Shown here piece after piece: positions 8,394 to 32,234 of a stretch of DNA of 34,700 nt. Numbering within the stretch: the stretch's first letter is position 1; each line of letters starts with the position of its first letter. The translations under genes and the position numbers were made by a program. The notes below the pieces were generated by a model. That model was given only the letters and a program-made list of their open reading frames with translations, was not told the origin of the DNA and did not search any database. This DNA comes from Actinomycetota bacterium (lineage in GTDB: Bacteria; Actinomycetota; JAUVYG01): NCBI GenBank assembly GCA_030603185.1, contig JAUVYG010000010.1:1-34700 (forward strand), written 5' to 3'.

Positions 8394-8684
8394 TCAAACC
8401 CTATGCATGTATCGGAAGATGTCTTCATGCTGGACCTGCACTTGGACCCCGAGCTTCTCGCCTGAACCGGTGAGAGTCTCTTTAAGGCCATCCAAAGAGG
8501 TGGAGTCTTCATCGATAGACACCAGCATGATCATTGCGAACAGTCCGCTACGAATAGTCTGACTTATATCCTCGATGTTGGCACCGGTTTCAGCCAGAAC
8601 TGACGAGACCTCGGCAACGATGCCCGGTCTGTCCTGTCCTATGACACTTACCACCAATCGAGAGCCGGTCGTCTCGGTAGTCAG
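8394..8684 (-). CDS. ACT-domain regulatory protein, UPF0237 family
   Basis: Small protein made of a single ACT domain. The core LVVSVIGQDRPGIVAEVSSV followed by EDISQTI and MIMLVSID is the UPF0237 signature. Proteins of this family accompany UPF0210 and are thought to sense a small molecule. The start is unclear. A strong GGAGG stands 6 nt before a CTG at 8684, giving 96 residues; the alternative TTG at 8657 has no SD at a useful distance. CTG is therefore preferred. It is the first gene of the four-gene operon ending in the lipoprotein. Confidence 0.85.
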   Translation of the reverse strand: MTTETTGSRLVVSVIGQDRPGIVAEVSSVLAETGANIEDISQTIRSGLFAMIMLVSIDEDSTSLDGLKETLTGSGEKLGVQVQVQHEDIFRYMHRV

Positions 8685-8860
8685 TCTGCGCCTCCGTCCG
8701 TAGGAATAATGCGAACCTAACCATAGGCTAGCGCAACTTATCCTTTTCAGTCCAACCCACACACTGCCGAGATAGCGGGTAGAATCGACAATAGAACGAG
8801 CAGAGCGGTGACCGATTGAATCCTGGAGCAAATCCTGTGCCGAGCGTAGTGCCCCTAGCC

Positions 8861-18372: not shown

Positions 18373-18384
18373 GTGGTTAATACA

Positions 18385-18540
18385 TCCCAGGTAGGTCTTC
18401 TGACTTAGGTTCGACACGCCGCCACTCCTTCCCGGGGTTTGACCCCAGTGGACTATGTGGAGGCGCTCACCATATACAGCGGCGGGCCCGTGTCGGATTC
18501 GCACCGACTTCCCTGAACCTGGACTATTCAGTTTCCGGAT
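18385..18540 (-). promoter_or_regulatory. Cobalamin riboswitch aptamer upstream of cobT
   Basis: Read on the minus strand the region holds the conserved core GGGAAGTCGGTGCGAATC, then GACACGGGCCCGCCGCTGTA, and near its 3' end the B12-box segment GTCAGAAGACCTACC. These are hallmarks of the cobalamin riboswitch. It ends about 75 nt before the cobT start. Adenosylcobalamin binding is expected to reduce cobT expression. Exact ends are approximate. Confidence 0.95.
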
Positions 18541-23168: not shown

Positions 23169-23642
23169 ATGCCACTGCCAACCATCCTGTCCAATGGACC
23201 AAATAACACCCAAGAGCTGGGCGCGAAGCTTGCTCGCCTCGTAGTAGACGGCGACGTTTTGCTGCTCTGTGGAGACCTAGGCGCAGGAAAGACCTGTCTG
23301 ACCAAGGGTTTGGCCACCGGGCTGGGCGTAGAAGACACCGTTATCAGCCCGACGTTCGTGCTCTTTCGCGAGTACAGCGGCCGAATTCCGTTATTCCACA
23401 TCGATCTCTACCGCGGATCGGACGATACCTATCTAGAGACTGGCGCAACGGATGTAGCCGGAGTCACCGGCGTCACGGTTGTTGAGTGGGGTGATCACAT
23501 CGAGGAGCTCATGAAGCGTTCCTTCGTGGATCATCTGGTCGTCAGGATCAACATCGGCGATGACGAGACATCTCGTGAACTGGTACTCGAGCCGCATGGC
23601 ACCAGATCTGCCCAGCTAGCAAAGGCGTGGTCGGAATCCTAA
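23169..23642 (+). CDS. tsaE: tRNA t6A37 biosynthesis ATPase TsaE
   Basis: 157-residue P-loop ATPase required for the threonylcarbamoyl modification of adenosine 37 in ANN-decoding tRNAs. Walker A is GDLGAGKT (35-42). Other family segments are ISPTFVLFREY, FHIDLYR and VVEWGDHI. The ATG lacks an SD and has a -10-like TACGCT 7 nt upstream. First gene of the run tsaE-tsaB-rimI/tsaD, which makes the whole complex except TsaC. Its stop overlaps tsaB by 16 nt. Confidence 0.95.
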   Translation: MPLPTILSNGPNNTQELGAKLARLVVDGDVLLLCGDLGAGKTCLTKGLATGLGVEDTVISPTFVLFREYSGRIPLFHIDLYRGSDDTYLETGATDVAGVTGVTVVEWGDHIEELMKRSFVDHLVVRINIGDDETSRELVLEPHGTRSAQLAKAWSES

Positions 23643-24382
23643 TAGCTTCCTTCGACTCATCCACCGAGCGGATCAGCATGGCTCTGAACCTATACGAGAA
23701 CGGGACTATCGCGCTCCTCGCGAGCGAAGATGTTGAGGCACGGCGCTACTCGGAAGTGATAATCGGGCTCCTTGAGGGTCTACTGTCGAAAAACGATCTC
23801 GGACCCAACGACATCGACGCCATTGCGGTAGGCATCGGTCCGGGTTCGTTCACCGGGTTGCGCGTTGGCGTTTCCACCGCCCGAACGCTGGCCCAGGTGC
23901 TTGATGTTCCACTGGCGGGTGTGCCCTCAGTAGAAGCCCTTCTGGCTACGGCTCAAGAGCAGCAGATCCGGGGAACCATCATCCCGGCCCTTGATGCTCA
24001 TAGGGGCCAGGTCTACGCTTGCCCTCCCATGACCGAGGGGGTCAGCTCACTGGCTCCAGAGTTAATGGATATTCCTGCATTTTTCGATCTAGTCAGGACC
24101 ACTTCCGAAAATGAAAAACAGGTCACCGTGGTCGGAACTGGTTGTGAGCTGCTTCATCGGTCGGATGACACAAAGCTCGCGGCTCACTGTACAGACCGCG
24201 AGATCCTCCGCAGGCCGGCGGCCACCCATATTGCCGCATGCGCCGCCGATGTCCTCTCTCACTTAGACAACAGAAGTCTGTTCAAGGTCGAACCGCTCTA
24301 CTGGCGTCCTGCTGACGCTTTGACCCTCAAAGAACGACAAGAACGAAGAAAGCTATCTCAGAAGGAGGGAGCTAACCAATGA
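23627..24382 (+). CDS. tsaB: tRNA t6A37 biosynthesis protein TsaB
   Basis: 251 residues of the ASKHA fold that dimerises with TsaD. Seen: IASFDSSTERISMAL at the N-terminus and the segment GIGPGSFTGLRVGVSTARTLA. GTG 23627 is chosen because it places the first strand correctly; it overlaps tsaE by 16 nt and has only AAAGGC ahead. Its stop overlaps the rimI-tsaD ATG by 4 nt. Confidence 0.94.
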   Translation: MVGILIASFDSSTERISMALNLYENGTIALLASEDVEARRYSEVIIGLLEGLLSKNDLGPNDIDAIAVGIGPGSFTGLRVGVSTARTLAQVLDVPLAGVPSVEALLATAQEQQIRGTIIPALDAHRGQVYACPPMTEGVSSLAPELMDIPAFFDLVRTTSENEKQVTVVGTGCELLHRSDDTKLAAHCTDREILRRPAATHIAACAADVLSHLDNRSLFKVEPLYWRPADALTLKERQERRKLSQKEGANQ

Positions 24383-25899
24383 CGGACAAAGCCGACCTCC
24401 CCGAGATAGTCATCGATCGAATGACCGAGAGCGATCTGCACCAGGTCATTCGGATAGAACGAGCCTCCTTTCCCACCCCTTGGACAATCGAGCTGTTCCA
24501 TAGCGAGCTCACAAATCCGCTCTCGAGATACTGGGTGGCGCGATCCGAGAACAAGGTTGTCGGATATATCGGGATCCTGGTCGTGCCCGCTGACGGACAG
24601 ATCACCACATTCGCGGTCAATCCTGATCACAGGCTGCAGGGAATCGGGACCAAGTTGCTCGAATTCGCCCTCTCGGTCGCTGTCAGCTGGGGATTGAGCG
24701 CTGTCACGCTAGAGGTTCGAGAAACCAATCTTGAGGCACAAATTCTCTACAGAAGCTTCGGTTTCGAGGAGCTTGGGCTGCGAGAAGGTTACTACGCCGA
24801 GATCAACGAGAACGCAGTGGTCATGGGAGTCGCCAATCTACAGGATCCAAAGGTGTGGTCTCGTTTCCACAAAGAAGAGTTGTTGGGACAGCAAAGGGAA
24901 CTGATACTCAGCGTAGAGACCTCCTGTGACGAGACGTCGCTCGCGCTTATGCGCGGAGGTGTTGAGGTCATCGCCTCCCTGGTCTCATCCCAGATAGAAC
25001 TGCACACCGAGTACGGAGGCGTGGTCCCCGAACTGGCAGCGCGCAGACACCTCGAACAACTCAACCCTCTTTTGGATGAGCTGATGAATGATGCCAAGGT
25101 GAGCTGGTCTGACATTGATGCCGTTGCTGTAACACTGGGCCCCGGACTGGTTATCGCTCTTCTGGTAGGAGCGGCAGCCGGAAAGGCGATTGCGTTCGCC
25201 AACGGTGTGCCTTTGATCGGACTGAACCATCTCGAAGGCCACATCGCCGCAAACTACATCTCTCATCCCCACCTAGAGCCGCCAGCGCTGGCCCACTTGA
25301 TGTCCGGCGGCCACACCATGCTCATCCATATGAAAAATAAGGGTGACTACGAGGTGATTGGCCAGACGGTGGATGACGCGGTCGGCGAGGCGTTCGACAA
25401 AGTCGGAGCTATGCTCAACCTTGGATATCCCGGAGGACCCGCCATAGACAGGTTGGCCGCAAATGGAGACCCAACCGCTTACCCACTTCCCCGAGCGATG
25501 GCTCACTCCAAGAACTATGACTTCAGCCTCTCCGGCCTAAAGACCGCGGTGAGAACACTGATCGAAAAAGAGGAGAAGCGTGGCGTGATCATAAACGTCC
25601 CAGACCTCTGCGCATCATTCCAAGCAGCAGTGTTCGACGTTCAGATAGCAAAGGCTCTAAAGGCCGCTAAGGCTCTTGGCCTTAAAGACATCCTGCTATC
25701 AGGAGGAGTCGCCGCCAATACCTATCTGCGAGCCCAATACTCGATCCGTGCAAAAGAAAAGGGCGTCAAGGTCTATGCGCCGCCACTCTCACTTTGCACG
25801 GACAATGCCGTAATGATGGGAGTAGCAGCGCACTGGAAGTACGTAGAACAGGACTTCATCAACTACGAGGCTGCAGTCGATCCGAACATGAAGCTATAA
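24379..25899 (+). CDS. tsaD: RimI-TsaD fusion: N-acetyltransferase joined to t6A transferase
   Basis: 506 residues in one frame. Residues about 8-152 are a GNAT acetyltransferase of the RimI type, with the acetyl-CoA loop in NPDHRLQGIGTKLL (81-94) and the terminal LYRSFGFEELGLREGYY; RimI acetylates the N-terminus of ribosomal protein S18 or related targets. Residues about 173-506 are TsaD: LILSVETSCDETS, the metal ligands H284 and H288 (NHLEGH) and D475 (CTDNAV), and LSGGVAANTYLR. TsaD transfers the threonylcarbamoyl group to A37. GGAGGGAGC precedes the ATG. rimI is often the neighbour of tsaB and tsaD; here the two are fused. Confidence 0.95.
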   Translation: MTDKADLPEIVIDRMTESDLHQVIRIERASFPTPWTIELFHSELTNPLSRYWVARSENKVVGYIGILVVPADGQITTFAVNPDHRLQGIGTKLLEFALSVAVSWGLSAVTLEVRETNLEAQILYRSFGFEELGLREGYYAEINENAVVMGVANLQDPKVWSRFHKEELLGQQRELILSVETSCDETSLALMRGGVEVIASLVSSQIELHTEYGGVVPELAARRHLEQLNPLLDELMNDAKVSWSDIDAVAVTLGPGLVIALLVGAAAGKAIAFANGVPLIGLNHLEGHIAANYISHPHLEPPALAHLMSGGHTMLIHMKNKGDYEVIGQTVDDAVGEAFDKVGAMLNLGYPGGPAIDRLAANGDPTAYPLPRAMAHSKNYDFSLSGLKTAVRTLIEKEEKRGVIINVPDLCASFQAAVFDVQIAKALKAAKALGLKDILLSGGVAANTYLRAQYSIRAKEKGVKVYAPPLSLCTDNAVMMGVAAHWKYVEQDFINYEAAVDPNMKL

Positions 25900-29441: not shown

Positions 29442-29477
29442 AAAGCCCGGGTCGAGCACTGCTCGACCCGGGCTTTT
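29442..29477 (+). terminator. Rho-independent terminator of groESL
   Basis: A perfect 17-bp inverted repeat (29442-29458 and 29460-29476) whose GC-rich stem ends in CTTTT. Very strong stem; it closes the groESL operon. Confidence 0.93.
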
Positions 29478-30877: not shown

Positions 30878-31264
30878 ATGCGAAACACTCTTGCACTAGT
30901 TTGCGACTCAGCCAATATGACCGCCGACGGAAAACTCAACATCCTCGGGGTCTTTTCTGAGGTCAGGGCTCACCGATTCCCTGCTACCCACGCGACGATG
31001 ACCATTGTGCTCAAGTTCAACAACATATTGGGGGACGAAGGAGAAATGCTCCTTACCGGAAGGTTCTTGGACTCTGATGGGGGCGAGACAATCACGCCGA
31101 TCAAAATGCCGGTGAATCTGGGTCAGGGGCATGATGAGGCAGTATCGATCATTAACATCTCAAGTCTGGAATTCCCTGGTGTGGGCGACTACTGCTTTGA
31201 GATCAGCTCCGGAGAAGAGTACCTAGCTTCGGTCCCCATCAAGGCTCGATCCATAGAAGACTAG
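30878..31264 (+). CDS. DUF6941 family protein
   Basis: 128 residues, predicted mostly beta strand, with the family opening ALVCDSANMTADGKLNILGVFSEV and a conserved FPATHATMTIVLKF. Soluble, no signal peptide. Function unknown; the fold may be a small C2-like or immunoglobulin-like sandwich, but this is a guess. The ATG lies 16 nt after the HtrA-like gene with no SD. The opposite-strand terminator at 31262-31305 overlaps its stop codon. Confidence 0.82.
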   Translation: MRNTLALVCDSANMTADGKLNILGVFSEVRAHRFPATHATMTIVLKFNNILGDEGEMLLTGRFLDSDGGETITPIKMPVNLGQGHDEAVSIINISSLEFPGVGDYCFEISSGEEYLASVPIKARSIED

Positions 31265-31305
31265 AAAAAAGAACGGCCTGGGTCGTTCGCAATCGACCCA
31301 GGCCG
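31262..31305 (-). terminator. Rho-independent terminator of a short minus-strand transcript
   Basis: Perfect 12-bp stem (31274-31285 and 31294-31305, CGGCCTGGGTCG on the plus strand) with an 8-nt loop. On the minus strand it is followed by TTCTTTTTTCTA; on the plus strand there is no U tract. The only candidate gene it can serve is the small ORF at 31316-31402. Confidence 0.8.
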
Positions 31306-31315
31306 CCTGTTCAGG

Positions 31316-31402
31316 TCACCGACCGCATCCAGCACACCAGCCATTTGCAGTAAGACCGTCCGACTTGTCGTACTTTAGCCAATTCCTTAGCTCTCTAAAC
31401 AA
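31316..31402 (-). CDS. Small peptide of 28 residues with CxxC motif, unknown
   Basis: TTG start at 31402 with GGAG 9 nt upstream, an open frame of 28 codons and TGA at 31316-31318, followed 11 nt later by a minus-strand terminator. The N-terminal half is basic and amphipathic (MFRELRNWLKYDKSDG) and the C-terminus reads NGWCAGCGR, a Cys-x2-Cys motif. A metal site, a redox pair or a precursor peptide are possible; no family recognised. It is divergent from the lipoprotein at 31498, with a 95-bp spacer. SD and terminator support it, but the short length leaves doubt. Confidence 0.5.
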   Translation of the reverse strand: MFRELRNWLKYDKSDGLTANGWCAGCGR

Positions 31403-31422
31403 TCAATTTATCTCCAAATACT

Positions 31423-31451
31423 GTGACAACTCGACCACAAAGGGATATGAA
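31423..31451 (+). promoter_or_regulatory. Promoter of the His/Asp-rich lipoprotein gene
   Basis: GTGACA (31423-31428; 5 of 6) and TATGAA (31446-31451; 4 of 6) are 17 nt apart. The start point would be near 31458, giving a leader of about 40 nt with the GGAGG site. Confidence 0.45.
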
Positions 31452-31497
31452 TAAGGTTAATCGGAGAAATTAAGCAGCTTACCTATCTGGAGGATGT

Positions 31498-32004
31498 ATG
31501 AAGAAGTTCTGGTTCTTGCTCGTGGCGATCCTGGTGCTCTCACTGGGTCTGATCGCAGCCGGTTGTCCAGCAACTGACGACAACAGCAATGGTACCGAGG
31601 CAGAAGAGCATGACGATGACCACGATGACGACGACGAGGACGAACATGATGACGATGATTCGAATGAATCAGCGGATTCTGACGCAGATACCACAGGTGC
31701 ACCTTCCATCTCGATAACCGTCCCCGAGAGCGGAAGTGAAGTCGCTGGTCCGGACGTTGAAGTCACAACCGAGGTCGAGGCATTCGAGGTCGTCAACAAG
31801 CCTGGCGAGGAAGCAGCGGAGGGCGAAGGCCATATTCACTGGAACGTGGATGGTGGACTCGACACTCCTACCTATGAGGCTGAGTTCACCGTTACTGACC
31901 TTGGAGCCGGTGAACACACGATCCAGGCAAAGCTACACAACAACGACCACACCCTCTACGAGGGAGCTGACACAGCAGAGGCGACAATAACCGTTACCGA
32001 GTAG
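31498..32004 (+). CDS. Lipoprotein with His/Asp-rich linker and DUF4399-like beta domain
   Basis: 168 residues. Signal sequence with lipobox LIAAGC (Cys23). Residues about 34-66 are almost only Asp, Glu and His (EEHDDDHDDDDEDEHDDDD), a likely divalent-metal-binding linker. A beta-rich domain follows (about 68-168) with GEGHIHWNVDGG and AGEHTIQAKLHNNDH, conserved His-containing loops that resemble DUF4399-type domains. GGAGG stands 4 nt before the ATG. Surface metal capture or buffering is plausible, not shown. The acid-rich linker and the tiny lipoprotein at 25904 look alike. Confidence 0.82.
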   Translation: MKKFWFLLVAILVLSLGLIAAGCPATDDNSNGTEAEEHDDDHDDDDEDEHDDDDSNESADSDADTTGAPSISITVPESGSEVAGPDVEVTTEVEAFEVVNKPGEEAAEGEGHIHWNVDGGLDTPTYEAEFTVTDLGAGEHTIQAKLHNNDHTLYEGADTAEATITVTE

Positions 32005-32081: not shown

Positions 32082-32124
32082 ACCGCATAGAAATGTTGAG
32101 AGGCCGGTTTTGACCGCATAGAAA
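32082..32124 (+). repeat. Two 12-bp direct repeats in the guaB3 leader
   Basis: ACCGCATAGAAA occurs at 32082-32093 and again, identical, at 32113-32124 (31 bp apart). A small hairpin CGGT/ACCG spans 32105-32116. They lie between the promoter and the terminator, so they are transcribed and could be binding sites or alternative pairing partners. Confidence 0.65.
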
Positions 32125-32130
32125 GAATCT

Positions 32131-32190
32131 AAGACCCCCAGACGCCTAGCGAGGCACAAAGCCCTGCTAGAAGCGCTGGGGGTCTTTCTT
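32131..32190 (+). terminator. Terminator or attenuator upstream of guaB3
   Basis: An 11-bp stem AAGACCCCCAG/CTGGGGGTCTT (32131-32141 and 32176-32186), extended inside by CGC/GCG and CTAGC/GCTAG pairs, is followed by TTTCTTTC. It sits 110 nt after the promoter and 45 nt before guaB3. It may end a small RNA, end the lipoprotein mRNA, or act as an attenuator. Confidence 0.8.
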
Positions 32191-32234
32191 TCAAAGCGAC
32201 TCGAACCCAAAACAGAGAGGAGCGAATCAGGCAC

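Follow-up and report, generated by a model that had tools for sequence, protein, structure and literature searches.

The window analyzed here is the whole 34,700-nt stretch from an Actinomycetota bacterium. From position 23169 to its end, every predicted gene lies on the plus strand. In order, the genes around the hairpin considered below encode a Na/H exchanger, GroES, GroEL, a DegP-like protease, a DUF6941 protein, an Asp/His-rich lipoprotein, an IMPDH-like protein, and a protein with a glutamine-amidotransferase domain at its beginning. The DUF6941 gene (30878-31264, plus strand; Pfam PF22091, E = 1.9e-26) and the lipoprotein gene (31498-32004, plus strand) are separated by a gap of 233 nt, in which this hairpin is located. 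If the lipoprotein gene has its own transcription, a promoter for it would be expected in the AT-rich part of this gap (31400-31490). The nearest relatives of the IMPDH-like protein are from Actinomycetota (Thermoleophilia, Acidimicrobiia, and others), and the relatives of the DUF6941 protein within the phylum share 25-35% identity with it. Members of the DUF6941 family turn up in few genomes of the phylum (14 of 397 at E 1e-5), and the source genome encodes two divergent paralogues, one in the window and one at 8409-8762 of genome contig C50 (G000:C50). Elsewhere in the window, a single frame (24379-25899) fuses a RimI-like GNAT acetyltransferase domain to TsaD, and the minus strand carries a cobalamin riboswitch at 18373-18537 (Rfam RF00174, 100 bits).

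Via inverted-repeat and folding analysis we identified an intrinsic-terminator hairpin at 31272-31307 that faces the minus strand. The stem has 12 perfect base pairs (arms 31274-31285 and 31294-31305), 14 with an extension, and encloses a loop of 8. Its minus-strand fold reaches -29 kcal/mol versus -13 ± 2.7 kcal/mol for shuffled sequences (z -5.8), and a U-tract read from the sequence, CTTTTTTCTA (31262-31271), adjoins the stem on the minus strand only. Both hallmarks of an intrinsic terminator are thus present: a GC-rich stem more stable than its shuffles, and a U-tract directly after it. The first-pass annotation had described a strong minus-facing terminator in a region whose genes all lie on the plus strand, and this description holds. 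Of all minus-facing terminators detected in the window, this hairpin is the strongest. On the plus strand it folds to -27.4 kcal/mol, and the tail on that side, CCTGTTCAG, has only 3 T. Other hairpins occur nearby. GroEL has its own at 29442-29476, and its stem shares the core GGGTCG/CGACCC with the hairpin at 31274-31305, by duplication or by chance. A strong terminator is also predicted 3' of the lipoprotein gene (32120-32200; -44.8 kcal/mol, z -8.7); it is branched and very stable, and was overlooked by a short-loop scan.

We surveyed perfect hairpins with stems of 8 bp or more across 1.43 of the 1.81 Mb of the source genome (141 stretches; 0.81 Mb in a first pass), using genes called roughly with a home-made hexamer model. 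The survey recovered 49 such intergenic hairpins, and nearly all of those with U-tails are oriented with the sense of a neighboring gene. Between codirectional genes, most strong hairpins have sense U-tails and are located 20-50 nt after the stop codon. Only three hairpins in such gaps have antisense tails, two of them weak (5 of 8), and the hairpin in the window is alone among the 49 in having a strong tail (7 of 8) directed against both neighbors. A tail this strong occurs at random intergenic positions with a frequency of 0.0016, so about 0.08 would be expected beside 49 hairpins. It is reasonable to conclude that the terminator is more than a chance arrangement and truly faces the minus strand, despite the rough gene calls. 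Two hairpins in divergent gaps were considered and set aside. One (L216:2837) lies 43 nt behind a minus-strand gene and would serve that gene. The other (L161:2189), initially taken for a terminator without a gene, belongs to a T-box leader at L161:1935-2203 on contig C50 (75 bits, E = 1.5e-16) whose terminator spans 2189-2215. The frame downstream of this leader is presumably a threonine-synthase-like gene. With an Rfam gathering score of 93, the leader is missed at the default cut-off in the source lineage.

Directly ahead of the terminator on the minus strand is a 28-aa open frame, MFRELRNWLKYDKSDGLTANGWCAGCGR (31402-31316), with a TTG start. GGAG, a putative Shine-Dalgarno-like word (31412-31415, minus strand), is found 9 nt upstream of the TTG, and the frame stops 8 nt ahead of the hairpin stem. 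The frame is therefore present as originally reported, GGAG-N9-TTG included. With an in-frame TGA immediately before the TTG, the frame is already at its maximum length. That length is not beyond chance for the region. Among shuffles of the gap, 63% carry a minus-strand frame of 28 aa or more, and 13% carry one with a Shine-Dalgarno-like word; in the source genome, 25 of the 48 antisense strands of 150-400-nt gaps hold a frame of such length. The hexamer score of the frame (0.09 per codon) is non-discriminating at 28 codons, as gene pieces of that length score 0.376 ± 0.204 and intergenic frames score -0.08 ± 0.215. GC content at codon positions 1, 2, and 3 is 0.46/0.54/0.50, versus 0.60/0.43/0.60 in genes, and GC3-GC2 is -0.04 (over 28 codons only) versus +0.18 in genes.

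Homology searches returned no relative of the peptide. No homologue was detected in 397 genomes of the phylum, a set that includes no other member of the source's own class. Matches at E ≤ 1 (E per genome) occurred in 82 of these genomes, the best at 0.01, and the matches at E 0.01-1 are fewer than the several hundred that chance allows; those alignments that were read appear unrelated. There was no match in the PDB, phages, NCBIfam, or PHROGs, and plasmids yielded only four matches at E 2-7, none of them a homologue. Membership in DUF1289 (PF06945) was considered and rejected, as the peptide scores 13.2 bits over 11 residues against a gathering cut-off of 27 bits. Reading past the stop codon, as for a DUF1289 pseudogene, raised this to just 14.3 bits. 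At the DNA level, the 397 genomes gave only matches of 19-31 nt to the locus. The ones that were inspected lie within, or on the strand opposite to, long unrelated frames, among them frames that we take to encode ATP synthase beta, DnaK, and a glycosyl hydrolase. IMG/VR and GTDB contigs were also searched for relatives sharing synteny, with DUF6941 as bait, and nothing near came up. With the IMPDH-like gene as bait, 80 actinobacterial loci were recovered (about 70-75% identity), and not one of them carries DUF6941 or the lipoprotein. The 28-aa frame is probably a chance reading frame, and the earlier proposal of an undescribed small-protein gene is not borne out: its length is that expected by chance, it lacks clearly gene-like codons, and it has no homologue anywhere searched.

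The orientation of the terminator makes a short minus-strand transcript plausible. To that extent the idea of a separate minus-strand unit stands, but the 28-aa frame as its purposeful content does not. The locus has no Rfam family above gathering score, and ahead of the terminator the minus-strand RNA is no more stably folded than its shuffles (z -0.7 to -0.9). A scan for promoters returned no minus-strand sigma-70-like site at the locus. A weak candidate for a bidirectional -10 element is TAAGGTTA (31452-31459), in which TANNNT words overlap on the two strands. The corresponding starts would be at about 31464 (plus) and 31447 (minus), 17 bp apart. The starts of bidirectional promoters lie 7-25 bp apart, but 87% of shuffles contain some pair, and because TANNNT words are expected by chance in an AT-rich stretch, the start site is a guess. 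Bacterial promoters with a nearly symmetric -10 element commonly support divergent transcription, which often yields antisense noncoding RNA, and the near symmetry of -10 elements is why firing in both directions is common (PMC10268837, PMC12825309). In a synthetic Escherichia coli system, terminators with strong antisense activity protect a gene against an antisense promoter located behind it (PMC4731013). Short frames are pervasively translated in Mycobacterium tuberculosis (PMC9094748).

Potentially accounting for these features, the one-way, minus-facing terminator behind the degP-DUF6941 pair may end antisense RNA arising in the promoter region of the lipoprotein gene, the most likely explanation, to which we give roughly even credence. 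We infer here a minus-strand transcript, its start, and the limitation of antisense transcription as the purpose of the terminator. The AT-rich gap before the lipoprotein gene (about 31400-31490) would fire both ways, and polymerase traveling backward would produce roughly 130-185 nt of RNA and be released at about 31265 before running antisense into DUF6941 and degP. Such an RNA would most likely be noncoding or incidentally translated, and the 28-aa frame within it would be there by chance. If ribosomes do engage the 28 codons, this would be a case of the pervasive short-frame translation described for M. tuberculosis.

A counterpoint to this guarding role is that the stem also sits where a sense terminator or 3' stabilizer of DUF6941 would be expected. 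The hairpin could thus serve mainly the plus strand, as the terminator or 3'-end stabilizer of the degP-DUF6941 mRNA, with the preceding A-run (the minus-strand U-tail) a coincidence or the hairpin weakly bidirectional. Its perfect stem lies 10 bp past the DUF6941 stop codon, the gap holds no second inverted repeat of 12 nt or longer, and its plus-strand fold is nearly as good as the other. However, the T-poor plus-strand tail sets it apart from the genome's other strong hairpins in codirectional gaps, mostly sense-tailed and farther behind the stop codon, and the opposite tail would arise by chance at only 0.16% of positions; we regard this explanation as unlikely. Somewhat less probable still is a regulatory function for the minus-strand RNA, as a small RNA ending in a terminator of its own. 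A length of about 130-185 nt from the possible starts to the U-tract and the lack of a recognizable gene in front of the terminator are consistent with it, whereas the missing Rfam match, the shuffle-like folding of the upstream part, and the yield of only short DNA matches in or opposite unrelated frames argue against it.

Two further alternatives give the frame a coding past or present. It could be the relic of a lost convergent minus-strand gene, of which the last codons and the terminator are left and the remainder was deleted. A stop codon followed after 8 nt by the stem resembles a normal gene end, and the frame terminates in a zinc- or redox-like CxxC. That spacing is nevertheless shorter than the 20-50 nt usual for sense terminators in this genome, and a similar C terminus is absent from the 397 phylum genomes, from NCBIfam, and from Pfam above cut-off, so that a relic seems improbable. 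It appears very improbable that the 28-residue CxxC peptide truly exists as a small protein specific to this lineage. Its Shine-Dalgarno-like word, its position just ahead of a real terminator, and its W-C-x2-C-G-R end with a weak DUF1289 likeness speak for it; chance frames of such size are usual in the region, however, its hexamer score falls between those of genes and intergenic frames, its codon-position GC is unlike that of genes, its TTG directly follows an in-frame stop, and the searches of genomes, families, structures, plasmids, and phages found no homologue. More broadly, there is little reason to expect either a lineage-specific metal or redox (CxxC) microprotein or a small regulatory RNA expressed from a minus-strand unit of its own. 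Such a unit would adjoin the gene for an Asp/His-rich lipoprotein that perhaps binds metal.

Overall, the terminator is real and its orientation unusual, the peptide gene is unsupported, and the locus is ordinary. If release of antisense RNA is indeed the role of the hairpin, it would provide a tidy example, from an uncultured lineage, of a one-way terminator protecting codirectional genes against backward transcription. It would also be a reminder that an open frame is not a gene just because a terminator follows it. Should the peptide prove real, it would rank as an orphan microprotein, and its interest would stay modest until relatives turn up.

Several features of the locus can be compared with known systems. 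The peptide resembles DUF1289 (PF06945) via a GWCxGCGR stretch within the 11 matched residues, although it reaches half the cut-off and lacks the remainder of the 47-position profile. Like the spurious short ORFs of actinobacteria, as in the pervasive translation of M. tuberculosis (PMC9094748), the frame is short, led by a Shine-Dalgarno-like word, without clearly gene-like codons, and on a probable RNA; the source organism belongs to a different class of the phylum, and the frame is known here from its sequence alone. With its GC-rich stem of 12-14 bp, loop of 8, and U-rich tail, the hairpin is built like other intrinsic terminators, yet it faces against both flanking genes and has no recognizable gene ahead of it. 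Finally, although the backward RNA is in our case predicted from the DNA sequence only, the arrangement of a codirectional gene pair, an AT-rich gap, and TANNNT words on both strands is like that of bidirectional promoters that produce divergent or antisense noncoding RNAs (PMC10268837, PMC12825309).
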